The notes below the pieces were generated by a model. The model saw nothing but the letters and a program-made list of their open reading frames with translations. It was not told where the DNA came from and made no database searches. A DNA stretch of 64,000 bases. Origin: Icerya purchasi. Lineage: Eukaryota; Arthropoda; Insecta; Hemiptera; Monophlebidae. How positions within the stretch are numbered: position 1 is the first letter of the stretch; every line of letters starts with the position of its first letter. The stretch is taken from positions 201,027,117 to 201,091,116 of the forward strand of contig CM077116.1 of assembly GCA_039619475.1 (NCBI GenBank), read 5' to 3'. Of this stretch, positions 7,476 through 38,411 are shown in pieces. The position numbers and the translations under genes were made by a program.

Positions 7476-7740
7476 AGTAGAGGGAAAATGTGACTATAAG
7501 GACAAAGGATGCCGCCACCGCTAATTAAGGCCTTCCAGAGCCGTTTCCGGAGCGTCTCGGACCGCGGAACCGCATTCCATTTGATTGTCGATCCCTTAAT
7601 TACCGCACACACATGTAAATGTACGTGTATATACGTCTGCACACACATGTAAAAATCACCATCATCATCACCATCGCGGTAAATTCGTACGCGTGCCATC
7701 GCAAGTGACCTTGTACCTGTCAATCAATTGGTCGATGCAT
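7476..7740. repeat. GC-richer terminal segment of the element, left
   Basis: The outermost ~260 bp is clearly less AT-rich than the interior, with blocks such as CGGACCGCGGAACCGC. It is mirrored exactly at 38147-38411. A compositionally distinct end suggests a transposase/integrase or replication recognition region, though that is inference. Confidence 0.5.
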
Positions 7741-8577
7741 GCCTTTGCTTGTACGTAAATTACCGTTATTCGGTAGCGACTGGTTTTGGAGGATTACGCA
7801 CACACACACAATGATGTATATACGGTTACGAGCGTTCGTAACATATGTAAAATTAGTTATTATCATTATTGATTTTCGTTGTTATCAATATTATCAGTGG
7901 TCAGTCTGCAGGAATCGCGGTAAAATACAGGTTTTCACCGTTCCGGTATTTCTAGGAATCGCGAAGATTTTCGTTCGGTCAGTTGCGTAAAACTTTTCTT
8001 TGTCCGATACATTATGTACGGGGGGTAAGTCTCTATCTCACACATCGCAAAAGCGAAAATGCTTCTCTCATAGCGCTACACGTAAATGCTAACGCAACCG
8101 TTGAAACCGGATCTTAACATTCTTATACTTTCTATTACAGTCTATGTCATATTGTAGATGGATACACCCTACATGTACACACTAACACAAAAACATACTC
8201 ATACTCAAAGCTCATGACTACTTTATTCAATGCGCATATGTAACCAACTATTCCTGACGGAATGACATTTTTCTGACGTAATATTTCCACTGCCACAACT
8301 GATTTAAACCAAGTAAAAGCGCATGCATCGTTCTCGCACACATGTCGATCGTTAGCGATATCGTAATTTTTTTTTAAATTAACCAAAGTATAATATTTAA
8401 AGCATAAAACTAACGTGAGCTCCCTATTCCCTGCTTTATACCATTCAAATGTATTTTTTAATTTTTTTATTTTTTCCATGCCTAAGCATTATAAAAATTG
8501 GTCTAAGTATATTTCTCATTTTCTACGGTTCCGAAAATTTTTTCTTTATTCTCCGATCGTTACAAAAACGTACTGAC

Positions 8578-8911
8578 TAGTGATGGGAAACTTCGAAATG
8601 TTTCATTCGAATTATTCGATTGTTCGATAACTTCGAATGCATTCGATTGTTCCACAGTTGCATTCGAAATGTTATTTCATTCGTATAATTCATTCGTATT
8701 CACATCAATCATTCGAATCAAAATCATTCGAATTAAAATCATTCGAATCAAAAATCATTCAAATCAAAATCATTCGAATTAAAATCATTCGAATCAAAAT
8801 CATTCAAATTAAAATCATTTGAATCAAAATCATTCGATTGTTTTTTGTTTTTTTTTTTGACGATTGTTGATTGTTTCGATTGTAAAAACATTTCGAAATC
8901 GCACATCACTA
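8578..8911. mobile_element. hAT-like MITE, tandem copy 1
   Basis: Begins TAGTGATGGG and ends CATCACTA; the ends are inverted (TAGTGATGGGAAACTTCG versus TAGTGATGTGCGATTTCG). Flanks are GTACTGAC (8570-8577) and GCACTGAC (8912-8919), an 8-bp TSD with one change. Its body is the AT-rich ATTCGAAT minisatellite and it has no gene. Confidence 0.7.
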
Positions 8912-9194
8912 GCACTGACAGATCACACGCTTATATCTACCATAGTGTTAGCCACCACGAAAGCGAACCATTCGATCCCGTGCACACTCTGCTCTCGATA
9001 GTTTCCCTATCGTTCATAATAATTTTTCAAAGCCTAAGTATCATAGAATTAGTGCAAGTATATTTATTATTTTTTCTCACTTACGATTATTTTTCCGTCC
9101 GTAAGTATTATAAAATTAGTCTAAGTATATTTCTCATTTTCTACGGTTCCAAAAATTTTTCCTTATTCTCCGATCGTTACAAAAGCGCACTAAC

Positions 9195-9526
9195 TAGTGA
9201 TGGGCAACTTCGAAATGATTCATTCGAATTATTCGATTGTTCGATAACTTCGAATGCATTCGATTGTTCCACAGTTACATTCGAAATGTTATTTCATTCG
9301 AATAATTCATTTGTATTCACAACAATCATTCGAATTAAAATCATTCGAATTAAAATCATTTGAATCAAAATCATTTGAATCAAAATCATTCGAATTAAAA
9401 TCATTCGAATCAAAATCATTCAAATTAAAATCATTTGAATCAAAATCATTCGATTGTTTTTTGTTTTTTTTTTTTTGACGATTGTTGATTGTTTCGATTG
9501 TAAAAACATTTCGACGCACATCGCTA
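9195..9526. mobile_element. hAT-like MITE, tandem copy 2
   Basis: Same MITE amplified with the tandem unit. Flanks GCACTAAC (9187-9194) and GCACTGGC (9527-9534) are mutated versions of one TSD. Confidence 0.65.
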
Positions 9527-9809
9527 GCACTGGCAGATCACACGCTTATATCTACCATAGCGTTAGCCACCACGAAAGCGAACCATTCGATCCCGTGCAC
9601 ACTCTGCTCTCGATAGTTTCCCTATCATTCATAATAATTTTTCAAAGCCTAAGTATCATAGAATTAGTGCAAGTATATTTATTATTTTTTCTCACTTACG
9701 ATTATTTTTCCGTCCGTAAGTATTATAAAATTAGTCTAAGTATATTTCTCATTTTCTACGGTTCCAAAAATTTTTCCTTATTCTCCGATCGTTACAAAAG
9801 CGCACTGAC

Positions 9810-10120
9810 TAGTGATGGGCAACTTCGAAATGATTCATTCGAATTATTCGATTGTTCGATAACTTCGAATACATTCGATTGTTCCACAGTTACATTCGAA
9901 ATGTTATTTCATTCGAATAATTCATTTGTATTCACAACAATCATTCGAATTAAAATCATTCGAATTAAAATCATTTGAATCAAAATCATTTGAATTAAAA
10001 TCATTCAAATTAAAATCATTCGAATCAAATCATTCGAATGAAAATCATTTGATTGTTTTTTTTTTTTTTTGACGATTGTTGATTGTTTCGATTGTAAAAA
10101 CATTTCGACGCACATCACTA
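9810..10120. mobile_element. hAT-like MITE, tandem copy 3
   Basis: Third copy, flanked by GCACTGAC (9802-9809) and GCACTGGC (10121-10128), slightly shorter because of a contracted minisatellite. Confidence 0.65.
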
Positions 10121-11429
10121 GCACTGGCAGATCACACGCTTATATCTACCATAGCGTTAGCCACCACGAAAGCGAACCATTCGATCCCGTGCACACTCTG
10201 CTCTCGATAGTTTCCCTATCGTTCATAATAATTTTTCCAAGCCTAAGTATTATAGAATTAGTCTAAGTATATTTATTATTTTTTCTCACTTACGATTACT
10301 TTTCCATCCATAAGTATTTATGTATGTTTTCCCCGATTCTAAAAATAAATCTATCGATGTCTCGCCCCTCAACGAAAGCACACGCATCATTCTCACACAC
10401 GTGTCATTCGTTCGCGTTACCACTTTTTTTCAAAATTAACCCAAGTATATTTTATTATTTTTCTCATTACGATTATTTTCAGTCCGTAAGTATTTCTGTA
10501 TGTTTTCCGAGGTTTTAAAAATTAATCCGAACAAACATTCAGACTGTTGTGAAAGCATACTATCTATCCCCCCCCGCACAGATTCTATATTACTCTATTA
10601 CGAGTTCTTCAAAAATTGATTCGAATATGTTTTTCATTTTTTTTTTTCAATCCTAAAAATTCATTCTTTCTACCCCACCCCACACATCTAAAATTACTGA
10701 TCTTTCGCAATCTTTATTTATTTTATCGATTCTAAAAATTAATCAATGATTCACTCGAAAGCGTACCGCACATTCCCACACAATTATCTTCTATCACGAA
10801 TTTCCCTATTGATCATGAACATTTTTTCAACGTTAGACACAATAGCATATCACATTGATCTCGCATATGTACCACATGCAGTTCTATATGTTTATTTTTT
10901 TATTAACGATCTTTATTTTTTTTTGTACCTGTATTACTTTTCCCTACACATTCATGTCATTATATACTCTTAACATTATCAAAAATAATTTTAACCTTTC
11001 GAGAAAGAAAAATCTCCGATCAATAAAAAATATTTATTAACATCACAATTATTTTTAATATTATTCGTTTCGCTATAAACATAATTTTTTTATTTAATAA
11101 ACTCATCCGTATCATCGATCGTTTCAAGATATTATTGTTTCGAACGTCAATCCCTGTTTTCCAAGAATCGATAACCTCTGCAGGTATATACATATCTCGT
11201 CATCGCAACAACCTTTACCTGCATGACTCGCATACCTTCAAGACCACTTGTACATTGCTCGCACGCTATTTCCCATTATTCGGTACAAGAATATTTTTCA
11301 CACTCCTTCACATATGCGTATACACTCAAAGTCCTCGATTACTTTGTTTGTATACAAATATATTCAGCTTTCTCCGACGGAACAACATTTTTCTGACGTA
11401 ACATTTCCACTGCCACAACCGATTCAAAG

Positions 11430-11651
11430 GTAGCTAATGAGATAGACTATCGAACGGAATCATTCAAGCGGTCAGTATTAGTTTTATGTTAAACATGTAT
11501 ATTTTATCGAATCTGTGTTCACGCATTATTAAAAAATTTACGTCAACGTTAAAGAAAATAATTTCCTACGTTTTTTCTCTTTTTTTCTCTATCATTTTTT
11601 TCTGTCTTTTATCTTTCCTTTTTCTCTTTCTTTTTCTCTGTATTTTTTTAG
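11430..11651 (+). other. Probable 5'-UTR intron of the 332-codon gene
   Basis: A long pyrimidine tract (11565-11650) ends in TTTTTTTAG just 30 bp before the ATG at 11682, a strong splice acceptor. The nearest reasonable donor is AAAG|GTAGCT at 11430. Suggests a spliced eukaryotic-type transcript. Mirrored at 34236-34457. Confidence 0.45.
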
Positions 11652-11681
11652 TGAAAAGTTTGAAATACATATTATTCAATC

Positions 11682-12680
11682 ATGAATGTTAATATAGTTA
11701 ACGTAAGCAGCAACTCAAGATCAATTAAGGACATTGCAAGTGATAGCGACTCACATACGTCTTCGTCACTTCAATTACCGCAATCAGATGGTGGTTATTC
11801 TTCAACAGAATCAACATCTTCTACACATAAAATCGTTGGTCCAGTATTATTGTCAGATCAGATGGATATAGCGGAATATTTTGTAGATTTCAGCTTCCAT
11901 AAGGATTCTGATTATGGTTTTCTAGTAACCGAACTAGCGATGATTGATATGTCTGGCGGGAGGTGTTTACATACGCTATACAAGCCAAGCAGAGCATGGT
12001 CTGCATCAAAAATGCCTCATTTACAATGCTCTTCCGTGAGTCATTACTTGAAAAACCCCTCATTATTTCCATGTCGAGAAGAAATATTCATGACACGTGA
12101 TGTATTCACAATACTGTCTGAAAAACCGAAGGTTCGCGTATATATTTTAACCACTTATGCAAAACTTATATTATGGGAACTTAATGAAAAGTCTGAATTG
12201 TTGCGTGACTTGGACTACGAACTCGTTAATATGGAGAAAGTCTTTCGAGTACCTAGTATTGATGATTTATATCAAGAATACTCCGGTATAAGCAATCTGG
12301 TAACTTGTAAGCACCATTATAAGAATGATATTTTTCATTGTGCGATGAAAAATGTTATGGTGATGAAGACGTGGCACGATCACGTTATCCGTCCGCTGAA
12401 GCTTATGAACAATCTCAATATAAATGATTTAAGCCAGTTGTTCATTACAGCCACCAAAGAAATGATAATTACATTATTTCCAAGTTGCATCGGGGACATT
12501 TATATATTTTTACCGGACAGATTAAAACAGGATGATACGATAAAATCATTTCTACCATGCTACGATCACGAACATGATAAAGAATATTATATCGATGGTG
12601 ATACATTACACAGGAGTACTCGAAATTGTGTCAAAGTAAAAGATTGCGACGACTGTCAACATTCAATTCATACGGATTAA
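11682..12680 (+). CDS. Element gene A, 332 residues, function unknown (arm 1)
   Basis: Longest open frame of the element. Residues 1-50 are Ser/Thr-rich and probably disordered. Residues 60-330 look folded: an acidic start (EYFVDFSF), LVTELAMIDMSGG, LYKPSRAW, then a CKHH(x)9CAMKNVxxxKTW block near residue 209-233 and a CxxC-like tail (DCDDCQH) near the end. The pattern 'FV(D/K)E(L/I)AI.D..G...H..(F/Y)KP...W' followed by 'C..H...CA..NV..L..W' reminds me of an uncharacterised, transposon-associated insect protein family with a possible DEDD/RNase H-like core; this is recollection, not a search, and I give it low weight. AATAAA at 12687-12692 follows the stop directly. Intact in both complete arms. 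Confidence 0.75.
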   Translation: MNVNIVNVSSNSRSIKDIASDSDSHTSSSLQLPQSDGGYSSTESTSSTHKIVGPVLLSDQMDIAEYFVDFSFHKDSDYGFLVTELAMIDMSGGRCLHTLYKPSRAWSASKMPHLQCSSVSHYLKNPSLFPCREEIFMTRDVFTILSEKPKVRVYILTTYAKLILWELNEKSELLRDLDYELVNMEKVFRVPSIDDLYQEYSGISNLVTCKHHYKNDIFHCAMKNVMVMKTWHDHVIRPLKLMNNLNINDLSQLFITATKEMIITLFPSCIGDIYIFLPDRLKQDDTIKSFLPCYDHEHDKEYYIDGDTLHRSTRNCVKVKDCDDCQHSIHTD

Positions 12681-12692
12681 AAATTCAATAAA

Positions 12693-14626
12693 AGACGTGG
12701 AATTTGAAAGCTGGAGTTGTCTAGATCCTACGAAAGTTGAATATGAACATAATAATTACCTTTCAATGTACCAAAGTCAATTGTCGCGTAGTATGTATAA
12801 TATGTGAAATAAAACCATATTTTTTCTTTTACTCGCATTTTTTATTTTTATTATTTCAAAATCTTTTACATTGTTTCACATAAATTATAATGTATGTATG
12901 TATATATGTATGGAATTTTAATATGTAATAATATACATTTCATACATTTTATTTTATTTCATGGTCGTATAATTACTTTAAAATTATTTAGATACACCGC
13001 AGATATTATAGTACCGAACACATCATTTATTATTCCATTCTATTTCAGTTAATATGTTGTATGGATGAAATCAAATCAATTTATGTAACTGTTTATTTAA
13101 ATTTAAATAATCTTTTTCTTTTTTTTTTTTATCTCTCAGCATATGCATGCGTGTATATGCTTACATATACAAGTATGAAAAAATTATTTTTTTATTTTTT
13201 CCTCGATATGAATGGTAAATCTACGAATTTATTTGAAAAACGGTCAAAACCTAATACATAGATTTCAAACTTTGATGGAAATTTCCGTAAAACGTTCAAT
13301 TTACACTTATTATCTTAAAAAAAAAATTTTTTCATTATTATTATTCATATCATTTAAATAGACTGATACGACAGAGAGAGAAAATAAAAAGCTAAATTAT
13401 TTTTACACGTGAGGGAGGGAGCTGATGAAAACGTACGAGTCTTATTATTTGGAATACAGATTATGAAGGAAATTTTTATTCAATGTTTCGTTCTAAGATT
13501 TTTCATTTTTTACATTTAAAATTTTTCAATACGAAAATATTTCGAAATCTACAGGAACGTCTACGAATAGTCTTCGTCATTATAGAAGCACCTGCAGATC
13601 ATGTATCGACACTGCAGGCGCGTAAGGGTGAGTAAATATGTGTGATCATGTGTGTGTATGTATGCTTGAAATGTGCGAAATGGCTAATAAGAAACAACCG
13701 TTGAATCGCAACGACAGGTAGAGATCCGCTTATAGAATAAGAGAGTGAGAGTGAGATAAATTATGTACCTTTATTATTGCAGAACTGCACTGTAGTGGCA
13801 GACATGAAATATCCGTTAGCATCCTTTTCGAGACAGTTTTATAAAAAAGGCCGAAAATTAACTTTAAAACTGGATGAATGAGATAGTTGATAATAAACAT
13901 ACCATTAAGACCGGTATACATGTATGTGGACATGTGTGTGAGCGCACGGTTAAATGAATGACAAAAGATTATTAACTGCATAGGCATTGTTAAATATAAC
14001 TATACTGATTTATCCGTAAAACTAACAAATTTTACCGTTGTTTTCTTTCCTTTTTTTTCTTTCGCGTTTTACAAAAAATTCATGTTAGTTCTAAAAATAT
14101 TGCTAAATTCAAATTAAATCGATCATGTTATTTTATTTTTATTTTTGTTTCTTTAAACAATGTGTTACGATCGTATTTATCTTACTCAATCTTTTACCTA
14201 ATATTCTAACGGTTTTAGACAACAGCAGAAATATGCAAGTTACCTTGGATGTATTATATTTTATTCATGTTTCTATACAAGCACATGCAAACATCGGATG
14301 CCGGAAATGTATGATAATATAATTTTTAAATCAATGATTAACGTATTATTATTATTTTTTTTTTTCACCATGTGATATACAAAATAACATCATACTTGCT
14401 TTTACAACAATATTTAAATTCTACATTAACATGTTGAAAATCTAATGATTTTTAAATGATTCGTTCGACATATTTATATTCCTCGAAAAAAGGGGAAATC
14501 GCTAACAATGTTTTATAATTATGTGTAAGGAATTGTATTATTAAGTTAGTATTGGTTAAAATTGACTAGAATGATTTTTAAAAAAGCTTCATATTTTATT
14601 ACAAAAATAAAAAAAATAATAAAAAA
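12693..14626. other. Space between convergent genes, arm 1
   Basis: Lies between the poly(A) signals of gene A (plus) and gene C (minus). Contains several weak frames: 66 codons at 13061, 65 at 14125, 85 at 13730-13987 minus. The 85-codon frame ends beside a possible donor (AAAG|GTACAT), so a spliced gene cannot be excluded. No domain recognised. The N gap lies within the arm 2/arm 3 equivalents of this stretch. Confidence 0.4.
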
Positions 14627-15437
14627 CTAATCAATTATGATAACACCATCATCATCATCATCATCGTCTATCACAATTATATTATCCATTTGTTCTTCTT
14701 CTTCTTCTTCATCATCATCATCATCAATGAAGGTTGATGCATTATTGAATGATCTATATATTAATGAAATAACATATACATAAGTTTTGAATGAAGTTAT
14801 TCATAATATAAATTCACTAATGTATACACTCTGTTAAAATTTCTATACAATATTTACTTACGAACTAGAGTTCGACGAATAAGATTGTATATCTGATGAC
14901 TGATCTAAATCATATAATTGAATTCGATAATTCTCGTAGTCAATCCGCAAATTCGTTATGGCATTGTTGATGTTCATTGATGGGGGGTGTCTCTCAACAT
15001 ATTCACCCCTCCGAACATGATCGAGTACTTCTATAAATTCACCGAAGGGGCATTGTCTCAAGCTAGCCTCCCAAGCTTCTTTGGTAGTCCAAAATTGTAG
15101 TACTCCTTTCACCGTTACTCCATTTATAATTTTTAAATATATTTCGGGGCTAACGTGTTGTATTATAATCTATAGTAAATAATAGATTTTATTTTCATAT
15201 ATTAAAATCATGTAAAAATGAATTGGTGATCTTATAGAGATCGAACTTTTCTTAATTTTCAAGCATTAACATATGAGTAAAAATCATGTGCATAAGCAGA
15301 TAATATTATAAAAATGGAAAAAATTTTTTGTATTTTTTAATTAATAGTTTTCTTACCATTGCTTCCGGTAATCCTATAGGTGCACTTGGAATGATGTTAA
15401 ATGTTATATTTGTAGACTTTCTGCGTATATTATCCAT
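14627..15437 (-). CDS. Element gene C, three exons, 171 residues with acidic tail (arm 1)
   Basis: Spliced model on the minus strand: exons 15437-15357, 15169-14862 and 14753-14627. The ATG exon encodes MDNIRRKSTNITFNIIPSAP and ends GCAATG|GTAAGA. Exon 2 begins after CTATAG and encodes QHVSPEIYLKIINGVTVKG, LQFWTTKEAWEASL and a basic/aromatic middle, ending TTC|GTAAGT. Exon 3 begins after ATATAG and encodes a tail of D5E6 and later D7 from GAT/GAA trinucleotide runs, then stop. All junctions are GT-AG and the frame is continuous. AATAAA follows the stop within about 30 bp. Function unknown. An acidic tail is common in histone-binding or DNA-mimic proteins, but that is only a suggestion. Confidence 0.7.
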
Positions 15438-15611
15438 ATCCTTTTTTTTATTGTAGAAAAAAATATATGATTAGAAAAAAAAATTTTTTCACCTACAACT
15501 TTTGATGATCTAGTGATAAAAATAAAAAATAAAAAAATAAAATATTGAGTACTAAATATAAATAATGCTTGTTTAAAAAAAATAAATAAATAAATAAATA
15601 AATAAATGAAT

Positions 15612-16217
15612 CTATAAAGGAAGCTTTTTTGAACCAATGAGGTTAGCTTTTAAAGAGAACACTCGTTGTGGATTTGTAATCTGTCTAAAGGGAATACTAT
15701 ATATTTCTCTGTTTATTACAAATAACGTTACGTTACGAATGGAATTTTTATAGCCTATACTAAGTTGTTTACATCTAGCATGACAATTTTTTGTTTTTAA
15801 CTTTAAATATTTTTTTTTAAATTTTTCAGTTGTAAATATATAAAGCTCTGGGGCGAAGTACTTTTTATAAATTGTTGCTAAATTGAGCCATTGAACTTCA
15901 ATGGGGGGTATGTCATTGATAAAGCAATTGGAAAATGTTTCCAGCTCATTATGTATATCACTCGTTTGTTTTAGTTTCTGTTCTAACGATAATACTACTT
16001 GCAGACTCTCCTGATAGCACATCTCGAATGATTTAATATATCGACTATTGTTTATAACATTTGTAAAAATTAACTTATTCGGATGAAATGTAATTTGTTT
16101 TTTACAGAATATTTCCGAAACACCGGTGTAACAATAAACAGTTGCCTGTGGATAAATGCTATTTGCGAAATCAATTCCTAAATTTTCTTTAATGACATCA
16201 TTATCCACGAAATACAT
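15612..16217 (-). CDS. Element gene B, 201 residues, function unknown (arm 1)
   Basis: Uninterrupted frame beginning MYFVDNDVIKENLG. No signal peptide, no membrane segment. A coiled-coil-like stretch lies at about residues 70-95 (LQVVLSLEQKLKQ), followed by IEVQWLNLATIYKKYF and a Lys-rich region with a C-x3-C pair (NCHARC) near residue 143-148. I do not recognise a family. Lies upstream of gene C on the same strand with 174 bp between them; AATAAA sits just before gene C's ATG. A leader exon is likely: donor GG|TAAG-type site at 17253 and acceptor TTTAG before 16243, an intron of about 1 kb. The identical frame occurs four times in the assembly. Confidence 0.7.
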   Translation of the reverse strand: MYFVDNDVIKENLGIDFANSIYPQATVYCYTGVSEIFCKKQITFHPNKLIFTNVINNSRYIKSFEMCYQESLQVVLSLEQKLKQTSDIHNELETFSNCFINDIPPIEVQWLNLATIYKKYFAPELYIFTTEKFKKKYLKLKTKNCHARCKQLSIGYKNSIRNVTLFVINREIYSIPFRQITNPQRVFSLKANLIGSKKLPL

Positions 16218-16243
16218 ATCTATCTGTCTTTCTTTTTTGTTTT

Positions 16244-17252
16244 CTAAACAAAATAAATAAATGATTGTTAAAAGAAATGTATTAAAAAAATTACACTTCT
16301 ACAGAATGATAGACTGTGTTAGTAATATTATATATTCAGAGAATTTAAACAGAAAAATATCATTAAAAATTTTTATTACATCCGAATGGATGGTGCAGAG
16401 CATATTTATACTTTAAAGAAACAAATCTCGAAATAATCTATACTTTTTTAGAATGGAATAGAAACATGCTTTACCCATTTCATTATTTGAAATGAATGTA
16501 TTTATTTTTTTAACAAGTTACTTTGAGTATTAATAATTCATAAATAATAGTAATAAATTATGAAATGTAGTTTTTATTGAGTATATATTATCGGGGGCGG
16601 CGAGAATAATGAGTATAATTTAATGAAATTATTGATAGAAATGGAGAAATTTTACTAAAAAATAGTATGAAAAGTAAAAATCTTCGAATACTATTCTTTA
16701 AATTGTTTAAATTAATACTATTGAAGAAATAAAATCTCCGATTTTCTATATTTTAAAAAATGGGGCGGGGATTTTCATTAATAAATTTTTATCTCACTTA
16801 AATATATTTAATCCATTATTTTTTGAAAGAAAAATTCATTTCATTACATAAAATCAATCTGATAATACTAAATAAATTAATATTGATACTCTACAATATA
16901 TATCTGTAAAAATCTATTATGAAAATTTTGAATACAGAAAAATAAATTGAGAGAGTCTAAGAAAAAAAGGAAAATTCATTTGCATTGAATGAAATAAACT
17001 ACACTAAACATTTTTTTATTTAGGATTTAAACAAAGAATAATATAATATATGAGGAATTATTGAAATATTTAGGAAATAAAGCAGAAAATAAAAAAAAAT
17101 TTCAAAAATCATTTTGAGAATAAAATTTTTTGAAAAAAATTATTACGAGGGGGTGAATGATCAAATCAATTGTGAGTATATATGAAAAAACGCGAATAAT
17201 TAAAATGAATAAATAAATAAATAAAAATATATGAATGTATTATATTACTTAC
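16244..17252 (-). other. Probable leader intron of gene B, arm 1
   Basis: On the minus strand a T-rich stretch ends GGTAAGTAA (donor at 17252-17251) and the acceptor TTGTTTAG lies just 26 bp before the gene B ATG. The interval is ~80% AT without any open frame, as expected for an intron. Splice use is inferred only. Confidence 0.4.
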
Positions 17253-17879
17253 CAAAAAAAAAAAAAAAAATAAATATGATGACTGATGAAAGGATTTAGA
17301 AAATTTTTAACTTTAACAAAACTCTAAAGAGTATAATATTCAAGAAAGCAAACAATGAACACTCGAAGACTTTTAAGTTTCAACTGATCATACTACTCAA
17401 ATTCGCAAATGCTTTATAGCTAAAAACTTTGCGATTTTATTATTATTATTATCTTTAGCTAAAGTGGTTTTTCAAAAGTAGATTTGTAAATAGCATTAAA
17501 ATATCATTTATTCGAACCATTTTTCGGGTATTCAAGCATTAAGCACGTTCACATATTTCTATTGTTGGTAGTGAACATTTCAACGGTAGTGTTTTGACCA
17601 CCTCATTAGGGATGTTTTACCATTTTACGATTCAACATAATGTTGCGGTTCATCATAATGTTGCGGTTGCTTAATTAGTTATCCGTTGTGACATTTAAAA
17701 GGATGATTTTAAACAGTGATTTTCGCAATATATCGCTTACACACGTTAATCGTTAGCCAAACAGCATTTATATCATCCGTTTTACCACACGCATCGAATG
17801 TGTAAATGCATATTCCGGTATCTGTCTAAAGTATTTTAACAGTCTTAAACTAATTTTTCATAATGATAATGGATATCCG
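17253..17879. promoter_or_regulatory. Axis-proximal region, probable promoter of gene B
   Basis: This ~630 bp between the palindrome axis and the putative leader exon must hold the start site of gene B. Because of the palindrome it faces its own mirror image, making a symmetric ~1.25-kb divergent promoter region for two identical genes (17253-18506). Contains paired phrases CAACATAATGTTGCGGTT and CATCATAATGTTGCGGTT at 17630-17670. No TATA box picked with confidence. Confidence 0.4.
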
Positions 17880-17891
17880 CGAATATCCATT
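17868..17891. repeat. Palindrome axis 1
   Basis: AATGGATAT, then a 6-nt spacer CCGCGA, then ATATCCATT. Either side, 5-10 kb of sequence is mirrored. A minimal asymmetric spacer is what fold-back (snap-back) DNA synthesis leaves. Confidence 0.9.
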
Positions 17892-19541: not shown

Positions 19542-20147
19542 ATGTATTTCGTGGATAATGATGTCATTAAAGAAAATTTAGGAATTGATTTCGCAAATAG
19601 CATTTATCCACAGGCAACTGTTTATTGTTACACCGGTGTTTCGGAAATATTCTGTAAAAAACAAATTACATTTCATCCGAATAAGTTAATTTTTACAAAT
19701 GTTATAAACAATAGTCGATATATTAAATCATTCGAGATGTGCTATCAGGAGAGTCTGCAAGTAGTATTATCGTTAGAACAGAAACTAAAACAAACGAGTG
19801 ATATACATAATGAGCTGGAAACATTTTCCAATTGCTTTATCAATGACATACCCCCCATTGAAGTTCAATGGCTCAATTTAGCAACAATTTATAAAAAGTA
19901 CTTCGCCCCAGAGCTTTATATATTTACAACTGAAAAATTTAAAAAAAAATATTTAAAGTTAAAAACAAAAAATTGTCATGCTAGATGTAAACAACTTAGT
20001 ATAGGCTATAAAAATTCCATTCGTAACGTAACGTTATTTGTAATAAACAGAGAAATATATAGTATTCCCTTTAGACAGATTACAAATCCACAACGAGTGT
20101 TCTCTTTAAAAGCTAACCTCATTGGTTCAAAAAAGCTTCCTTTATAG
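19542..20147 (+). CDS. Element gene B (arm 2)
   Basis: Mirror copy of 15612-16217, identical at the protein level. Probably the real second-arm copy of the palindrome, with the copies at 25740 and 29670 being assembly duplicates of the two. Confidence 0.7.
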   Translation: MYFVDNDVIKENLGIDFANSIYPQATVYCYTGVSEIFCKKQITFHPNKLIFTNVINNSRYIKSFEMCYQESLQVVLSLEQKLKQTSDIHNELETFSNCFINDIPPIEVQWLNLATIYKKYFAPELYIFTTEKFKKKYLKLKTKNCHARCKQLSIGYKNSIRNVTLFVINREIYSIPFRQITNPQRVFSLKANLIGSKKLPL

Positions 20148-20321
20148 ATTCATTTATTTATTTATTTATTTATTTATTTTTTTTAAACAAGCATTATTTA
20201 TATTTAGTACTCAATATTTTATTTTTTTATTTTTTATTTTTATCACTAGATCATCAAAAGTTGTAGGTGAAAAAATTTTTTTTTCTAATCATATATTTTT
20301 TTCTACAATAAAAAAAAGGAT

Positions 20322-25565: not shown

Positions 25566-25739
25566 ATCCTTTTTTTTATTGTAGAAAAAAATATATGATT
25601 AGAAAAAAAAATTTTTTCACCTACAACTTTTGATGATCTAGTGATAAAAATAAAAAATAAAAAAATAAAATATTGAGTACTAAATATAAATAATGCTTGT
25701 TTAAAAAAAATAAATAAATAAATAAATAAATAAATGAAT

Positions 25740-27995: not shown

Positions 27996-28019
27996 AATGG
28001 ATATCCGCGAATATCCATT
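27996..28019. repeat. Palindrome axis 2
   Basis: Same sequence and same 6-nt CCGCGA spacer as axis 1. Two independent fold-back events would not choose the same nucleotide, so axes 1 and 2 are either one site assembled twice or a later duplication. Confidence 0.9.
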
Positions 28020-29669
28020 ATCATTATGAAAAATTAGTTTAAGACTGTTAAAATACTTTAGACAGATACCGGAATATGCATTTACACATTCGATGCGTGT
28101 GGTAAAACGGATGATATAAATGCTGTTTGGCTAACGATTAACGTGTGTAAGCGATATATTGCGAAAATCACTGTTTAAAATCATCCTTTTAAATGTCACA
28201 ACGGATAACTAATTAAGCAACCGCAACATTATGATGAACCGCAACATTATGTTGAATCGTAAAATGGTAAAACATCCCTAATGAGGTGGTCAAAACACTA
28301 CCGTTGAAATGTTCACTACCAACAATAGAAATATGTGAACGTGCTTAATGCTTGAATACCCGAAAAATGGTTCGAATAAATGATATTTTAATGCTATTTA
28401 CAAATCTACTTTTGAAAAACCACTTTAGCTAAAGATAATAATAATAATAAAATCGCAAAGTTTTTAGCTATAAAGCATTTGCGAATTTGAGTAGTATGAT
28501 CAGTTGAAACTTAAAAGTCTTCGAGTGTTCATTGTTTGCTTTCTTGAATATTATACTCTTTAGAGTTTTGTTAAAGTTAAAAATTTTCTAAATCCTTTCA
28601 TCAGTCATCATATTTATTTTTTTTTTTTTTTTTGGTAAGTAATATAATACATTCATATATTTTTATTTATTTATTTATTCATTTTAATTATTCGCGTTTT
28701 TTCATATATACTCACAATTGATTTGATCATTCACCCCCTCGTAATAATTTTTTTCAAAAAATTTTATTCTCAAAATGATTTTTGAAATTTTTTTTTATTT
28801 TCTGCTTTATTTCCTAAATATTTCAATAATTCCTCATATATTATATTATTCTTTGTTTAAATCCTAAATAAAAAAATGTTTAGTGTAGTTTATTTCATTC
28901 AATGCAAATGAATTTTCCTTTTTTTCTTAGACTCTCTCAATTTATTTTTCTGTATTCAAAATTTTCATAATAGATTTTTACAGATATATATTGTAGAGTA
29001 TCAATATTAATTTATTTAGTATTATCAGATTGATTTTATGTAATGAAATGAATTTTTCTTTCAAAAAATAATGGATTAAATATATTTAAGTGAGATAAAA
29101 ATTTATTAATGAAAATCCCCGCCCCATTTTTTAAAATATAGAAAATCGGAGATTTTATTTCTTCAATAGTATTAATTTAAACAATTTAAAGAATAGTATT
29201 CGAAGATTTTTACTTTTCATACTATTTTTTAGTAAAATTTCTCCATTTCTATCAATAATTTCATTAAATTATACTCATTATTCTCGCCGCCCCCGATAAT
29301 ATATACTCAATAAAAACTACATTTCATAATTTATTACTATTATTTATGAATTATTAATACTCAAAGTAACTTGTTAAAAAAATAAATACATTCATTTCAA
29401 ATAATGAAATGGGTAAAGCATGTTTCTATTCCATTCTAAAAAAGTATAGATTATTTCGAGATTTGTTTCTTTAAAGTATAAATATGCTCTGCACCATCCA
29501 TTCGGATGTAATAAAAATTTTTAATGATATTTTTCTGTTTAAATTCTCTGAATATATAATATTACTAACACAGTCTATCATTCTGTAGAAGTGTAATTTT
29601 TTTAATACATTTCTTTTAACAATCATTTATTTATTTTGTTTAGAAAACAAAAAAGAAAGACAGATAGAT

Positions 29670-30275
29670 ATGTATTTCGTGGATAATGATGTCATTAAAG
29701 AAAATTTAGGAATTGATTTCGCAAATAGCATTTATCCACAGGCAACTGTTTATTGTTACACCGGTGTTTCGGAAATATTCTGTAAAAAACAAATTACATT
29801 TCATCCGAATAAGTTAATTTTTACAAATGTTATAAACAATAGTCGATATATTAAATCATTCGAGATGTGCTATCAGGAGAGTCTGCAAGTAGTATTATCG
29901 TTAGAACAGAAACTAAAACAAACGAGTGATATACATAATGAGCTGGAAACATTTTCCAATTGCTTTATCAATGACATACCCCCCATTGAAGTTCAATGGC
30001 TCAATTTAGCAACAATTTATAAAAAGTACTTCGCCCCAGAGCTTTATATATTTACAACTGAAAAATTTAAAAAAAAATATTTAAAGTTAAAAACAAAAAA
30101 TTGTCATGCTAGATGTAAACAACTTAGTATAGGCTATAAAAATTCCATTCGTAACGTAACGTTATTTGTAATAAACAGAGAAATATATAGTATTCCCTTT
30201 AGACAGATTACAAATCCACAACGAGTGTTCTCTTTAAAAGCTAACCTCATTGGTTCAAAAAAGCTTCCTTTATAG
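29670..30275 (+). CDS. Element gene B (arm 4)
   Basis: Mirror of 15612-16217 (coordinates sum to 45887); identical protein. Confidence 0.7.
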   Translation: MYFVDNDVIKENLGIDFANSIYPQATVYCYTGVSEIFCKKQITFHPNKLIFTNVINNSRYIKSFEMCYQESLQVVLSLEQKLKQTSDIHNELETFSNCFINDIPPIEVQWLNLATIYKKYFAPELYIFTTEKFKKKYLKLKTKNCHARCKQLSIGYKNSIRNVTLFVINREIYSIPFRQITNPQRVFSLKANLIGSKKLPL

Positions 30276-30449
30276 ATTCATTTATTTATTTATTTATTTA
30301 TTTATTTTTTTTAAACAAGCATTATTTATATTTAGTACTCAATATTTTATTTTTTTATTTTTTATTTTTATCACTAGATCATCAAAAGTTGTAGGTGAAA
30401 AAATTTTTTTTTCTAATCATATATTTTTTTCTACAATAAAAAAAAGGAT

Positions 30450-31260
30450 ATGGATAATATACGCAGAAAGTCTACAAATATAACATTTAACATCATTCCA
30501 AGTGCACCTATAGGATTACCGGAAGCAATGGTAAGAAAACTATTAATTAAAAAATACAAAAAATTTTTTCCATTTTTATAATATTATCTGCTTATGCACA
30601 TGATTTTTACTCATATGTTAATGCTTGAAAATTAAGAAAAGTTCGATCTCTATAAGATCACCAATTCATTTTTACATGATTTTAATATATGAAAATAAAA
30701 TCTATTATTTACTATAGATTATAATACAACACGTTAGCCCCGAAATATATTTAAAAATTATAAATGGAGTAACGGTGAAAGGAGTACTACAATTTTGGAC
30801 TACCAAAGAAGCTTGGGAGGCTAGCTTGAGACAATGCCCCTTCGGTGAATTTATAGAAGTACTCGATCATGTTCGGAGGGGTGAATATGTTGAGAGACAC
30901 CCCCCATCAATGAACATCAACAATGCCATAACGAATTTGCGGATTGACTACGAGAATTATCGAATTCAATTATATGATTTAGATCAGTCATCAGATATAC
31001 AATCTTATTCGTCGAACTCTAGTTCGTAAGTAAATATTGTATAGAAATTTTAACAGAGTGTATACATTAGTGAATTTATATTATGAATAACTTCATTCAA
31101 AACTTATGTATATGTTATTTCATTAATATATAGATCATTCAATAATGCATCAACCTTCATTGATGATGATGATGATGAAGAAGAAGAAGAAGAACAAATG
31201 GATAATATAATTGTGATAGACGATGATGATGATGATGATGGTGTTATCATAATTGATTAG
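30450..31260 (+). CDS. Element gene C, three exons (arm 4)
   Basis: Mirror of 14627-15437: exons 30450-30530, 30718-31025 and 31134-31260. Same product. Confidence 0.7.
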
Positions 31261-33206
31261 TTTTTTATTATTTTTTTTATTTTTGTAATAAAATATGAAG
31301 CTTTTTTAAAAATCATTCTAGTCAATTTTAACCAATACTAACTTAATAATACAATTCCTTACACATAATTATAAAACATTGTTAGCGATTTCCCCTTTTT
31401 TCGAGGAATATAAATATGTCGAACGAATCATTTAAAAATCATTAGATTTTCAACATGTTAATGTAGAATTTAAATATTGTTGTAAAAGCAAGTATGATGT
31501 TATTTTGTATATCACATGGTGAAAAAAAAAAATAATAATAATACGTTAATCATTGATTTAAAAATTATATTATCATACATTTCCGGCATCCGATGTTTGC
31601 ATGTGCTTGTATAGAAACATGAATAAAATATAATACATCCAAGGTAACTTGCATATTTCTGCTGTTGTCTAAAACCGTTAGAATATTAGGTAAAAGATTG
31701 AGTAAGATAAATACGATCGTAACACATTGTTTAAAGAAACAAAAATAAAAATAAAATAACATGATCGATTTAATTTGAATTTAGCAATATTTTTAGAACT
31801 AACATGAATTTTTTGTAAAACGCGAAAGAAAAAAAAGGAAAGAAAACAACGGTAAAATTTGTTAGTTTTACGGATAAATCAGTATAGTTATATTTAACAA
31901 TGCCTATGCAGTTAATAATCTTTTGTCATTCATTTAACCGTGCGCTCACACACATGTCCACATACATGTATACCGGTCTTAATGGTATGTTTATTATCAA
32001 CTATCTCATTCATCCAGTTTTAAAGTTAATTTTCGGCCTTTTTTATAAAACTGTCTCGAAAAGGATGCTAACGGATATTTCATGTCTGCCACTACAGTGC
32101 AGTTCTGCAATAATAAAGGTACATAATTTATCTCACTCTCACTCTCTTATTCTATAAGCGGATCTCTACCTGTCGTTGCGATTCAACGGTTGTTTCTTAT
32201 TAGCCATTTCGCACATTTCAAGCATACATACACACACATGATCACACATATTTACTCACCCTTACGCGCCTGCAGTGTCGATACATGATCTGCAGGTGCT
32301 TCTATAATGACGAAGACTATTCGTAGACGTTCCTGTAGATTTCGAAATATTTTCGTATTGAAAAATTTTAAATGTAAAAAATGAAAAATCTTAGAACGAA
32401 ACATTGAATAAAAATTTCCTTCATAATCTGTATTCCAAATAATAAGACTCGTACGTTTTCATCAGCTCCCTCCCTCACGTGTAAAAATAATTTAGCTTTT
32501 TATTTTCTCTCTCTGTCGTATCAGTCTATTTAAATGATATGAATAATAATAATGAAAAAATTTTTTTTTTAAGATAATAAGTGTAAATTGAACGTTTTAC
32601 GGAAATTTCCATCAAAGTTTGAAATCTATGTATTAGGTTTTGACCGTTTTTCAAATAAATTCGTAGATTTACCATTCATATCGAGGAAAAAATAAAAAAA
32701 TAATTTTTTCATACTTGTATATGTAAGCATATACACGCATGCATATGCTGAGAGATAAAAAAAAAAAAGAAAAAGATTATTTAAATTTAAATAAACAGTT
32801 ACATAAATTGATTTGATTTCATCCATACAACATATTAACTGAAATAGAATGGAATAATAAATGATGTGTTCGGTACTATAATATCTGCGGTGTATCTAAA
32901 TAATTTTAAAGTAATTATACGACCATGAAATAAAATAAAATGTATGAAATGTATATTATTACATATTAAAATTCCATACATATATACATACATACATTAT
33001 AATTTATGTGAAACAATGTAAAAGATTTTGAAATAATAAAAATAAAAAATGCGAGTAAAAGAAAAAATATGGTTTTATTTCACATATTATACATACTACG
33101 CGACAATTGACTTTGGTACATTGAAAGGTAATTATTATGTTCATATTCAACTTTCGTAGGATCTAGACAACTCCAGCTTTCAAATTCCACGTCTTTTATT
33201 GAATTT

Positions 33207-34205
33207 TTAATCCGTATGAATTGAATGTTGACAGTCGTCGCAATCTTTTACTTTGACACAATTTCGAGTACTCCTGTGTAATGTATCACCATCGATATAA
33301 TATTCTTTATCATGTTCGTGATCGTAGCATGGTAGAAATGATTTTATCGTATCATCCTGTTTTAATCTGTCCGGTAAAAATATATAAATGTCCCCGATGC
33401 AACTTGGAAATAATGTAATTATCATTTCTTTGGTGGCTGTAATGAACAACTGGCTTAAATCATTTATATTGAGATTGTTCATAAGCTTCAGCGGACGGAT
33501 AACGTGATCGTGCCACGTCTTCATCACCATAACATTTTTCATCGCACAATGAAAAATATCATTCTTATAATGGTGCTTACAAGTTACCAGATTGCTTATA
33601 CCGGAGTATTCTTGATATAAATCATCAATACTAGGTACTCGAAAGACTTTCTCCATATTAACGAGTTCGTAGTCCAAGTCACGCAACAATTCAGACTTTT
33701 CATTAAGTTCCCATAATATAAGTTTTGCATAAGTGGTTAAAATATATACGCGAACCTTCGGTTTTTCAGACAGTATTGTGAATACATCACGTGTCATGAA
33801 TATTTCTTCTCGACATGGAAATAATGAGGGGTTTTTCAAGTAATGACTCACGGAAGAGCATTGTAAATGAGGCATTTTTGATGCAGACCATGCTCTGCTT
33901 GGCTTGTATAGCGTATGTAAACACCTCCCGCCAGACATATCAATCATCGCTAGTTCGGTTACTAGAAAACCATAATCAGAATCCTTATGGAAGCTGAAAT
34001 CTACAAAATATTCCGCTATATCCATCTGATCTGACAATAATACTGGACCAACGATTTTATGTGTAGAAGATGTTGATTCTGTTGAAGAATAACCACCATC
34101 TGATTGCGGTAATTGAAGTGACGAAGACGTATGTGAGTCGCTATCACTTGCAATGTCCTTAATTGATCTTGAGTTGCTGCTTACGTTAACTATATTAACA
34201 TTCAT
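33207..34205 (-). CDS. Element gene A, 332 residues (arm 4)
   Basis: Mirror of 11682-12680; identical protein and identical pyrimidine-tract acceptor upstream. Only two copies of gene A are assembled because arms 2 and 3 stop at the gap just short of it. Confidence 0.75.
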   Translation of the reverse strand: MNVNIVNVSSNSRSIKDIASDSDSHTSSSLQLPQSDGGYSSTESTSSTHKIVGPVLLSDQMDIAEYFVDFSFHKDSDYGFLVTELAMIDMSGGRCLHTLYKPSRAWSASKMPHLQCSSVSHYLKNPSLFPCREEIFMTRDVFTILSEKPKVRVYILTTYAKLILWELNEKSELLRDLDYELVNMEKVFRVPSIDDLYQEYSGISNLVTCKHHYKNDIFHCAMKNVMVMKTWHDHVIRPLKLMNNLNINDLSQLFITATKEMIITLFPSCIGDIYIFLPDRLKQDDTIKSFLPCYDHEHDKEYYIDGDTLHRSTRNCVKVKDCDDCQHSIHTD

Positions 34206-35566
34206 GATTGAATAATATGTATTTCAAACTTTTCACTAAAAAAATACAGAGAAAAAGAAAGAGAAAAAGGAAAGATAAAAGACAGAAAAAAATGATAGAG
34301 AAAAAAAGAGAAAAAACGTAGGAAATTATTTTCTTTAACGTTGACGTAAATTTTTTAATAATGCGTGAACACAGATTCGATAAAATATACATGTTTAACA
34401 TAAAACTAATACTGACCGCTTGAATGATTCCGTTCGATAGTCTATCTCATTAGCTACCTTTGAATCGGTTGTGGCAGTGGAAATGTTACGTCAGAAAAAT
34501 GTTGTTCCGTCGGAGAAAGCTGAATATATTTGTATACAAACAAAGTAATCGAGGACTTTGAGTGTATACGCATATGTGAAGGAGTGTGAAAAATATTCTT
34601 GTACCGAATAATGGGAAATAGCGTGCGAGCAATGTACAAGTGGTCTTGAAGGTATGCGAGTCATGCAGGTAAAGGTTGTTGCGATGACGAGATATGTATA
34701 TACCTGCAGAGGTTATCGATTCTTGGAAAACAGGGATTGACGTTCGAAACAATAATATCTTGAAACGATCGATGATACGGATGAGTTTATTAAATAAAAA
34801 AATTATGTTTATAGCGAAACGATTAATATTAAAAATAATTGTGATGTTAATAAATATTTTTTATTGATCGGAGATTTTTCTTTCTCGAAAGGTTAAAATT
34901 ATTTTTGATAATGTTAAGAGTATATAATGACATGAATGTGTAGGGAAAAGTAATACAGGTACAAAAAAAAATAAAGATCGTTAATAAAAAAATAAACATA
35001 TAGAACTGCATGTGGTACATATGCGAGATCAATGTGATATGCTATTGTGTCTAACGTTGAAAAAATGTTCATGATCAATAGGGAAATTCGTGATAGAAGA
35101 TAATTGTGTGGGAATGTGCGGTACGCTTTCGAGTGAATCATTGATTAATTTTTAGAATCGATAAAATAAATAAAGATTGCGAAAGATCAGTAATTTTAGA
35201 TGTGTGGGGTGGGGTAGAAAGAATGAATTTTTAGGATTGAAAAAAAAAAATGAAAAACATATTCGAATCAATTTTTGAAGAACTCGTAATAGAGTAATAT
35301 AGAATCTGTGCGGGGGGGGATAGATAGTATGCTTTCACAACAGTCTGAATGTTTGTTCGGATTAATTTTTAAAACCTCGGAAAACATACAGAAATACTTA
35401 CGGACTGAAAATAATCGTAATGAGAAAAATAATAAAATATACTTGGGTTAATTTTGAAAAAAAGTGGTAACGCGAACGAATGACACGTGTGTGAGAATGA
35501 TGCGTGTGCTTTCGTTGAGGGGCGAGACATCGATAGATTTATTTTTAGAATCGGGGAAAACATACA

Positions 35567-37407
35567 TAAATACTTATGGATGGAAAAGTAATCGTAAGTG
35601 AGAAAAAATAATAAATATACTTAGACTAATTCTATAATACTTAGGCTTGGAAAAATTATTATGAACGATAGGGAAACTATCGAGAGCAGAGTGTGCACGG
35701 GATCGAATGGTTCGCTTTCGTGGTGGCTAACGCTATGGTAGATATAAGCGTGTGATCTGCCAGTGCTAGTGATGTGCGTCGAAATGTTTTTACAATCGAA
35801 ACAATCAACAATCGTCAAAAAAAAAAAAAAACAATCAAATGATTTTCATTCGAATGATTTGATTCGAATGATTTTAATTTGAATGATTTTAATTCAAATG
35901 ATTTTGATTCAAATGATTTTAATTCGAATGATTTTAATTCGAATGATTGTTGTGAATACAAATGAATTATTCGAATGAAATAACATTTCGAATGTAACTG
36001 TGGAACAATCGAATGTATTCGAAGTTATCGAACAATCGAATAATTCGAATGAATCATTTCGAAGTTGCCCATCACTAGTCAGTGCGCTTTTGTAACGATC
36101 GGAGAATAAGGAAAAATTTTTGGAACCGTAGAAAATGAGAAATATACTTAGACTAATTTTATAATACTTACGGACGGAAAAATAATCGTAAGTGAGAAAA
36201 AATAATAAATATACTTGCACTAATTCTATGATACTTAGGCTTTGAAAAATTATTATGAATGATAGGGAAACTATCGAGAGCAGAGTGTGCACGGGATCGA
36301 ATGGTTCGCTTTCGTGGTGGCTAACGCTATGGTAGATATAAGCGTGTGATCTGCCAGTGCTAGCGATGTGCGTCGAAATGTTTTTACAATCGAAACAATC
36401 AACAATCGTCAAAAAAAAAAAAACAAAAAACAATCGAATGATTTTGATTCAAATGATTTTAATTTGAATGATTTTGATTCGAATGATTTTAATTCGAATG
36501 ATTTTGATTCAAATGATTTTGATTCAAATGATTTTAATTCGAATGATTTTAATTCGAATGATTGTTGTGAATACAAATGAATTATTCGAATGAAATAACA
36601 TTTCGAATGTAACTGTGGAACAATCGAATGCATTCGAAGTTATCGAACAATCGAATAATTCGAATGAATCATTTCGAAGTTGCCCATCACTAGTTAGTGC
36701 GCTTTTGTAACGATCGGAGAATAAGGAAAAATTTTTGGAACCGTAGAAAATGAGAAATATACTTAGACTAATTTTATAATACTTACGGACGGAAAAATAA
36801 TCGTAAGTGAGAAAAAATAATAAATATACTTGCACTAATTCTATGATACTTAGGCTTTGAAAAATTATTATGAACGATAGGGAAACTATCGAGAGCAGAG
36901 TGTGCACGGGATCGAATGGTTCGCTTTCGTGGTGGCTAACACTATGGTAGATATAAGCGTGTGATCTGTCAGTGCTAGTGATGTGCGATTTCGAAATGTT
37001 TTTACAATCGAAACAATCAACAATCGTCAAAAAAAAAAACAAAAAACAATCGAATGATTTTGATTCAAATGATTTTAATTTGAATGATTTTGATTCGAAT
37101 GATTTTAATTCGAATGATTTTGATTTGAATGATTTTTGATTCGAATGATTTTAATTCGAATGATTTTGATTCGAATGATTGATGTGAATACGAATGAATT
37201 ATACGAATGAAATAACATTTCGAATGCAACTGTGGAACAATCGAATGCATTCGAAGTTATCGAACAATCGAATAATTCGAATGAAACATTTCGAAGTTTC
37301 CCATCACTAGTCAGTACGTTTTTGTAACGATCGGAGAATAAAGAAAAAATTTTCGGAACCGTAGAAAATGAGAAATATACTTAGACCAATTTTTATAATG
37401 CTTAGGC
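35567..37407. repeat. Three ~616-bp tandem repeats with MITEs (arm 4)
   Basis: Mirror of 8480-10320. MITE copies at 36976-37309, 36361-36692 and 35767-36077. Presence in both outer arms shows the MITE insertion and the triplication predate the fold-back duplication. Confidence 0.8.
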
Positions 37408-38411
37408 ATGGAAAAAATAAAAAAATTAAAAAATACATTTGAATGGTATAAAGCAGGGAATAGGGAGCTCACGTTAGTTTTATGCTTTAAATATTATACT
37501 TTGGTTAATTTAAAAAAAAATTACGATATCGCTAACGATCGACATGTGTGCGAGAACGATGCATGCGCTTTTACTTGGTTTAAATCAGTTGTGGCAGTGG
37601 AAATATTACGTCAGAAAAATGTCATTCCGTCAGGAATAGTTGGTTACATATGCGCATTGAATAAAGTAGTCATGAGCTTTGAGTATGAGTATGTTTTTGT
37701 GTTAGTGTGTACATGTAGGGTGTATCCATCTACAATATGACATAGACTGTAATAGAAAGTATAAGAATGTTAAGATCCGGTTTCAACGGTTGCGTTAGCA
37801 TTTACGTGTAGCGCTATGAGAGAAGCATTTTCGCTTTTGCGATGTGTGAGATAGAGACTTACCCCCCGTACATAATGTATCGGACAAAGAAAAGTTTTAC
37901 GCAACTGACCGAACGAAAATCTTCGCGATTCCTAGAAATACCGGAACGGTGAAAACCTGTATTTTACCGCGATTCCTGCAGACTGACCACTGATAATATT
38001 GATAACAACGAAAATCAATAATGATAATAACTAATTTTACATATGTTACGAACGCTCGTAACCGTATATACATCATTGTGTGTGTGTGCGTAATCCTCCA
38101 AAACCAGTCGCTACCGAATAACGGTAATTTACGTACAAGCAAAGGCATGCATCGACCAATTGATTGACAGGTACAAGGTCACTTGCGATGGCACGCGTAC
38201 GAATTTACCGCGATGGTGATGATGATGGTGATTTTTACATGTGTGTGCAGACGTATATACACGTACATTTACATGTGTGTGCGGTAATTAAGGGATCGAC
38301 AATCAAATGGAATGCGGTTCCGCGGTCCGAGACGCTCCGGAAACGGCTCTGGAAGGCCTTAATTAGCGGTGGCGGCATCCTTTGTCCTTATAGTCACATT
38401 TTCCCTCTACT

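Follow-up and report, generated by a model that had tools for sequence, protein, structure and literature searches.

Results

The stretch of Icerya purchasi DNA analysed here (64,000 nucleotides of contig CM077116.1, hereafter the window) holds a giant palindromic element with ends of the Polinton (Maverick) type, consisting of two arms of 10,404 bp each (left 7476-17879, right 28008-38411). The arms differ at 2 of 10,404 positions, one at arm offset 3588 and the other within a 6-nt loop at the axis of symmetry, and since 10.4-kb arms are near-identical a chance origin is excluded. On the + strand the terminus AGTAGAGGG has a single match at 7476 and its mirror CCCTCTACT a single match at 38403 (38403-38411), and the 6-bp target site duplication (TSD) GACGGG abuts both ends of the element at 7470-7475 and 38412-38417; when the host flanks are joined in silico, a single GACGGG site results. 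The initial annotation had described inverted termini, GACGGG on both sides and virtually identical arms of 10,404 bp, all of which is borne out. It had also let a 20.8-kb element extend over 7476 to 38411; the total of ~20.8 kb stands, and the interval does not, as a scaffold gap causes ~10 kb to be counted twice. A gap of 100 N lies inside the window at 23003-23102. The left contig reads through the axis (17879/17880) up to 23002, the right contig runs from 23103 onward through the same axis (~28008), and the loop CCGCGA is found in the same orientation in both. Because both contigs share this loop and its orientation, they overlap by ~10 kb within one ~20.8-kb palindrome, and the interval is one such palindrome around a 100-N gap rather than one 30.9-kb element. 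The features of the locus are as follows, read from the sequence unless another basis is named.

7470-7475, no strand: left copy of the TSD, GACGGG
7476-17879, + strand: left arm, 10,404 bp, from terminus AGTAGAGGG to the axis
7476-8306, + strand (mirrored at 37581-38411): terminal region common with full-length Polintons, that is, the ~660-bp terminal inverted repeat (TIR) and a left-end extension to arm position 831
8467-10318, + strand (mirrored at 35569-37420): about three direct repeats of ~617 bp holding arrays of a 15-bp unit
11682-12680, + strand (mirrored at 33207-34205, - strand): 332-aa gene, within a 338-aa stop-to-stop open reading frame (ORF)
14861-15169, - strand: 103-aa ORF, perhaps spliced to part of 15309-15470 (- strand) as one exon of a gene; weak, splice sites placed by eye
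15615-16298, - strand (mirrored in the right arm at 29589-30272, + strand): 228-aa ORF
17343-17876, + strand: axis-proximal ~530 bp with homology to the right (PolB-side) subterminal region, 77-80% nt identity (by alignment)
17869-17890, no strand: axis A, ATGGATAT-CCGCGA-ATATCCAT
17880-23002, - strand: second half as read by the left contig (same DNA as part of 28008-38411)
23003-23102, no strand: 100-N scaffold gap
23103-28007, + strand: first half as read by the right contig (same DNA as part of 7476-17879), up to its copy of the axis
28008-38411, - strand: right arm, 10,404 bp, mirroring the left one (2/10,404 differ)
38412-38417, no strand: right copy of the TSD, GACGGG

Relatives of the element were sought in the whole genome (1.10 Gb in 41 contigs, two of them 602 and 497 Mb) using the first 600 bp as query, and the best 40 of 594 candidates were scored. 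All 40 matched at 96-100% identity. Eighteen inverted pairs take up 36 of them; the members lie 17-24.5 kb apart in 16 pairs, and the other two, both gap-split, span 31 and 35 kb. Giant palindromes account for 11 of the 18 pairs (the window element and copies c5, c220, c114, c7, 342, 269, 446, 440, 238 and 392); the remaining seven have non-matching interiors and are full-length elements (c91, c268, c176, 357, 522, 367 and 589), with a terminal repeat of 660-677 bp in the three that were read whole. The one full-length element read for genes, c91, encodes an rve integrase (with a chromodomain match below cut-off), an A32 ATPase, a PLA2-domain protein and a double-jelly-roll capsid protein. Its PolB is a 1,225-aa ORF that reached 95.6 bits against a cut-off of 25.8 for PF03175 in a genome profile search and contains polymerase motifs; an hmmscan of the same ORF did not report the PF03175 family, and comparison with the PDB gave no match.

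Like a Polinton, the window element has AG/AGT termini and inverted repeats (AGTAGAGGG...CCCTCTACT). A perfect 6-bp TSD was present in 10 of the 13 palindromes examined and in 5/5 full-length elements, the remaining palindromes being 446 with 5/6 matching bases, a copy at C1:18.7 Mb with none, and one at C1:0.43 Mb whose ends fell outside the coordinates taken. Aligned to the left end of c91 (L010), the window arm is 95.7% identical up to position 831; aligned to the right end it is 99.7% identical, only up to position 666. The element c176, which lies in reversed orientation, likewise has its longer match to the palindrome at the integrase-side end. Judged by these alignments, the palindrome carries two left (integrase-side) ends, and as two identical left ends share one TSD, it must have existed as linear DNA before integration. 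The last ~530 bp of the arm are 80% identical to the c91-type right subterminal region and oriented toward the lost right terminus, which indicates that the doubling took place at the right end of a shortened genome.

The palindromes form a large family. Allowing up to 2 mismatches, a 37-mer from the 332-aa gene matched the whole genome 381 times on the + and 380 times on the - strand, and a 38-mer from the PolB gene of the c91 family 39 times; a 32-mer from the terminus gave 174 matches on + and 168 on -. Of 100 listed places of the gene 37-mer (all exact, on C1), 88 make up 44 inverted pairs. The resulting figure of ~380 elements should be read as a maximum, because each gap-split copy enters the count two times. 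Four gene copies without a listed partner were read: in three cases an inverted partner lies where the usual spacing predicts it, and the remaining copy, at C1:48.27 Mb, is shortened and partly inverted. The 100 terminus matches listed, all on C1, gave 43 pairs within 45 kb. Thirteen of these pairs contain at least two listed gene copies each and no PolB match, 11 of them being 18.95-21.2 kb long and two (33 and 35 kb) holding five and four gene copies, respectively. Another eight contain a PolB match and measure 20.2-25.5 kb; as the gene list reached 276 Mb, absence of the gene was assessed in three of these eight, and 20 pairs lie beyond that point. Two of the 43 pairs, 7.2 and 34 kb long, have neither gene nor PolB. 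Within the 18-pair set, ten palindromes are 16,963-21,429 bp long (median 20.7 kb; c220 and c114 19.0, c7 17.0), with the gap-split 392 left out and the window element taken as 20,808 bp, and the seven full-length elements 20,995-24,479 bp (median 21.7 kb). The members of the family each pair two head-to-head copies of a gene-poor Polinton, and the family has spread beside intact Polintons.

Three places on these lists stand apart. The pair at C1:61705828-61713010 is the only short one (7.2 kb) among the 43 listed on C1 and is possibly a conventional deletion derivative. At C1:247222611-247235988, a 33-kb terminal pair encloses four direct copies of the 332-aa gene at a spacing of 4,447 bp, followed by one inverted copy, either a tandem amplification inside one arm or an effect of assembly. 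At C2:113548237 and C2:113553697, two same-strand gene copies lie 5.5 kb apart and have no inverted partner among the 40 scored.

The 332-aa gene is a distant paralogue (25-28% aa identity) of two genes adjoining the parental Polinton capsid gene, and the 228-aa ORF shares 40-45% aa identity with an ORF that three other Polintons of the genome carry close to PolB and the axis; a search for relatives of the 103-aa ORF (14861-15169) found none. Among the six longest ORFs of the window arm there was no credible Pfam match to PolB, integrase, capsid or ATPase. Comparison of the arm ORFs with Pfam and PHROGs returned one match at E 0.078 and nothing credible, and the best PDB sequence for the 338-aa ORF (E 0.034) was not credible either; its single-sequence AlphaFold model had a pLDDT of 31.8 and was unusable. 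No match came from scans of viral contigs, for which three arm ORFs, the c91 capsid and the terminus served as queries, or from Rfam and tRNA scans. As the full-length relatives have PolB and none was found in the window arm, we class the element as a non-autonomous derivative and not as a self-synthesising Polinton. Its 332-aa gene is whole and open in both arms of the window element, c5, c220 and c7, the other palindrome copies having been read at the 3' part of the gene only. Between palindromes, pN/pS is mostly 0.15-0.3; with approximate site counts, the window and c7 genes differ by 10 synonymous and 9 non-synonymous changes (Fisher p = 0.0015) and those of the window and 238 by 11 and 9 (p = 0.0003), so that the gene looks to be under codon-level constraint.

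Other copies differ in make-up. The palindromes c7 and c114 have the outer arm in common with the window and differ in their interiors, where they carry a homologue (~55% aa) of a parental gene, and c114 and 440 contain fragments resembling the parental integrase-side region. Parts of the first ~2 kb of c114 are close to the parental left end (a 221-aa ORF at 90%, an 87-aa stretch at 100%), suggesting recombination with the parent. In sequence, the arm has the look of a Polinton monomer that was shortened and is of mosaic make-up, with no recognisable PolB, integrase, ATPase or capsid genes. Full-length elements of the kind that the initial annotation had proposed to look for, with the same left end as the palindrome, are present, with 6-bp TSDs and, in c91, PolB and integrase. 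The assignment to Polintons is supported by the termini and 6-bp TSD common with PolB-bearing full-length elements, and for the same reason a different transposon superfamily is ruled out; the remark that 20.8 kb is near full-length Polinton size agrees with the resident elements of 20,995-24,479 bp. Its picture of one half replaced by a mirror image holds for the two left ends and calls for correction in that the arm does not equal one half of the resident parent. The window element is also no single oddity, since the family in the same genome is large and rules out a one-off event.

Among the eleven palindromes sampled we distinguished four to six axes. Axis A reads ATGGATAT-CCGCGA-ATATCCAT in the palindrome, and the same site, unpalindromised, reads ATGGATAT-TTACGG or TCACGG-ATATTCAT in c91 and c176, where it forms a hairpin with 7/8 pairs and a 6-nt loop, 1.18 kb from the right terminus of c91. 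Within the right 2.5 kb of c91, such a stem with a 6-nt loop occurs at 4 of 2,480 centres (34 of 2,480 with any loop of 3-12 nt). The axis-A 42-mer is present at four loci. The window element has the hallmark of a snap-back genome, namely near-perfect self-complementarity with a short single-copy loop (the 6-nt CCGCGA). Axis B (c7) folds with a 30-nt loop and axis C (342 and 269) with an 8-nt loop. Copies c114 and 446 carry the axis-C loop and a few bases beyond it and then diverge; either their centre folded independently, leaving a ~710-nt loop, or these copies are type-C palindromes from which ~700 bp have gone on one side. In c114 another 1.6 kb is missing from one side. The sites of axes D (440) and E (238 and 392) fall within a tandem array immediately internal to the repeat of the other end, and the two may represent one event. 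As positioned from the parents, axes A, D and E are ~0.6-1.2 kb inside the lost terminus.

Substitutions were counted across a common region of 3.8 kb. In all five elements compared there, the two arms are separated by 0-1 substitution; 2-6 separate elements that share an axis type (window, c5 and c220), and 89-109 those whose axis types differ. Whole-arm differences, counted on aligned bases with gaps left out, are 1/10,000 for the window, 0/9,800 for c5, 1/8,571 for c220, 3/8,088 for c114 and 14/8,077 for c7. In 1-kb samples of six further palindromes the arms are 99.9-100% identical, and five of the six, aligned with the window, differ from it by 11-46 substitutions per kb. The arms of c220 (L013/L014) and c7 (L024/L025) seem to differ by about one ~617-bp repeat unit and are otherwise nearly identical. 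In c114, both arms carry an identical 10-bp insertion in the 332-aa gene. Going by these findings, one arm serves as the template for the other or is corrected against it, either while the element is mobile or later.

A genome search with PF03175 revealed further PolB lineages (best 91 of 638 candidates scored). In such other Polinton lineages, inverted PolB pairs, mirrored in the central 3 kb read, occur at five places: at C1:475.54 and C1:427.2 they meet at the axis, and at C1:284.1, C2:168.0 and C1:540.6 they are separated by spacers of ~0.2-1.4 kb. At C1:427.2 the sequence was followed to ~10 kb from the axis, short of the terminus, and its outermost 3 kb are 100% mirrored. Gap-split double copies are found in the scaffolds of the window and C1:427.20-427.23 Mb and probably at C1:349.78-349.82 and C2:392.78-392.82 Mb, the gap itself being seen only in the window and at C1:427.2; each inflates the assembly by ~10 kb.

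Inverted pairs of double-jelly-roll capsid genes with equal scores, 1-4 kb apart, were also observed as profile matches only (C2:167085480/167088090, C1:471578025/471579249 and C2:115858096/115861309); they may be capsid-side palindromes complementary to the PolB-side ones. Elsewhere in the window, 49815-52889 on the - strand holds a non-LTR (non-long-terminal-repeat) retrotransposon with an intact 1,025-aa frame and endonuclease and reverse transcriptase domains.

Discussion

Considering these data together, we favour, with a probability of roughly 0.78, a reading in which the element is a non-autonomous, satellite-like Polinton whose near-perfectly palindromic linear genome arose by snap-back replication and was then mobilised in trans by intact Polintons. 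During strand-displacement, protein-primed replication, a strand of a shortened Polinton, displaced or left unfinished, would lose its right end, fold back at a small hairpin and prime its own copying to the left end, giving a duplex with two left ends. PolB and integrase of intact Polintons would then replicate and insert the palindrome in trans, and arm identity would be kept through replication, be it by hairpin mismatch correction, arm exchange or renewed snap-back. A packaging limit, as in a virus particle, would hold the length near one full Polinton, and the palindrome lengths, which are near that unit, suggest such a limit. Ends in common with the c91 family, no enzymes of its own found, and a copy number in excess of the c91 family may fit a satellite that depends on the enzymes and ends of a helper.

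Several observations weigh against snap-back origin and satellite spread. The third full-length copy aligned, c268, has an indel at axis A and no such hairpin, and c114, which is unpalindromised at the axis-B site, shows no stem there. If the centre of c114 and 446 reflects a one-sided loss, an unequal centre has been inherited, which simple renewed snap-back in every cycle would not allow. Nucleotide similarity to the c91 family is low in the arm interior (831-9868), so the direct parent would be another lineage, and a non-palindromic progenitor with the 332-aa gene was looked for among four gene copies without a listed partner and not found. That gene is broken in both arms of c114 by an identical 10-bp insertion, and its pN/pS exceeds 1 for 440 compared with 238 or 392 (1 synonymous and 6 or 5 non-synonymous changes), pairs with so few changes being uninformative. 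Matches to the terminus 32-mer number less than half of the 761 gene copies, which implies that many palindromes have other or decayed ends. Finally, the copy at C1:18.70 Mb (L080/L081) combines two terminal variants, AGTAGATGT and AGTAGAGGG, without a TSD and is possibly a recombinant between two insertions.

A different route to the same structure would be a head-to-head dimer made by end joining, in which two linear molecules, both shortened, became fused, or else the strands at a right end capped by a hairpin. The axis-B junction, where no homology exists, and the fact that axes A, D and E sit some 0.6-1.2 kb short of the lost terminus speak in its favour; it requires, however, that two molecules be joined at the same base each time, and axis A sits on a pre-existing 7/8-bp hairpin with a 6-nt loop that is single-copy, as fold-back predicts. 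We regard end joining as improbable. Far less probable still is an inverted duplication of an integrated Polinton made by host break repair, for which a precedent exists in the fold-back repair described in yeast with stems as short as 4 bp (PMC7467729): a chromosomal event would duplicate host flank and not place a second left terminus beside the same 6-bp TSD, whereas 10 of 13 palindromes have both termini and perfect TSDs. Being contradicted by the TSDs, this explanation was rejected. The notion that the mirror image is produced by chimeric (missed-adapter) reads or by the scaffolder deserves attention because the window is gap-split with ~10 kb of the element counted twice, C1:427.2 has a 100-N gap between two axis copies, and C1:349.8 and C2:392.8 each have two axis copies within one long terminus pair. 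Stretches free of N nevertheless cross the axes of c5, c220, c7, 342, 269, 440 and 238 (for the last four, as read over the central 3 kb), four loci have the axis-A 42-mer, axes differ between copies, and 10 of 13 palindromes have a perfect 6-bp TSD of their own. N-free crossings and separate TSDs make a simple assembly artefact unlikely and, together with the differing axes, led us to reject it as scarcely credible.

How the arms stay identical is a separate question, and ongoing chromosomal gene conversion between them, rather than replication, is an unlikely answer that still carries more weight than any of the alternatives above. It would account for arms with unequal structure and equal bases, as in c220 and c7, which differ by about one ~617-bp unit, and in c114, which has a one-sided loss near the centre while the common 3.8-kb region shows 0-1 substitutions between arms. 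On the other hand, 0-1 substitutions within elements against 89-109 between axis types would demand very efficient conversion in every insertion, and the TIRs within three full-length elements are equally identical (99.7-100% over ~660 bp), which points to recent insertion instead of conversion.

The inverted PolB pairs, the inverted capsid-gene pairs and the unit-length sizes in the window's family raise the question of whether palindromisation might be a general Polinton life-style in this genome, with PolB-side and capsid-side palindromes as complementary half-genomes that, along with satellite palindromes, would be replicated and packaged in virus particles as unit-length segments of a multipartite virus system. 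We consider this rather doubtful. If true, multipartite palindromic Polintons would offer a possible route to segmented viruses such as bidnaviruses.

Intact vertebrate Mavericks are described as 12.7-24.6 kb long, with 6-bp TSDs, (AGT)2 or (AG)3 ends and inverted repeats of 46-1,447 bp (PMC8097293). The palindromes resemble Polintons (Mavericks, polintoviruses, adintoviruses) in their AGT-starting termini, 6-bp TSD, size of ~20 kb and TIR common with resident PolB-bearing elements; they differ in that the inverted repeat of the window element spans the whole element (10.4-kb arms) and that none of the defining genes was found in the arm. Adeno-associated virus (AAV) snap-back genomes are reported to be self-complementary and to coexist with complete genomes (PMC8235507). 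That likeness to our palindromes goes no further, as AAV is a parvovirus with another replication mode whose snap-back genomes come from virions, whereas here we deal with transposon copies in a nuclear genome. Defective adenovirus genomes with a symmetric duplication of the left end, and undersized adenovirus vectors that multimerise, are cases of a linear protein-primed replicon in which unit length is restored; such genomes are not known to be integrated or inherited or to have a TSD. The duplicated end and unit length resemble those of the window family. Foldback transposons such as Drosophila FB and Tetris also have long inverted repeats, with other termini and TSD lengths, whereas the ends and TSD of the window element are of the Polinton type. 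In the literature searched by title and start of abstract we found no description of palindromic Polintons.

Large palindromes are regarded as fragile and unstable in the accounts we cite (PMC7999016, PMC4057610), and a large palindrome family in one genome is a resource on palindrome stability as well as a warning for assemblies, where double counting occurs. According to the account of vertebrate Mavericks, no Polinton particles have been seen so far (PMC8097293), and the palindromes bear on the question of extrachromosomal replication and particle formation in Polintons. Fold-back junctions would be direct traces of strand-displacement replication, and with hundreds of gene copies against 39 PolB copies, a seemingly constrained gene and unit lengths, the palindromes would provide a natural satellite/helper system for replication and packaging signals.

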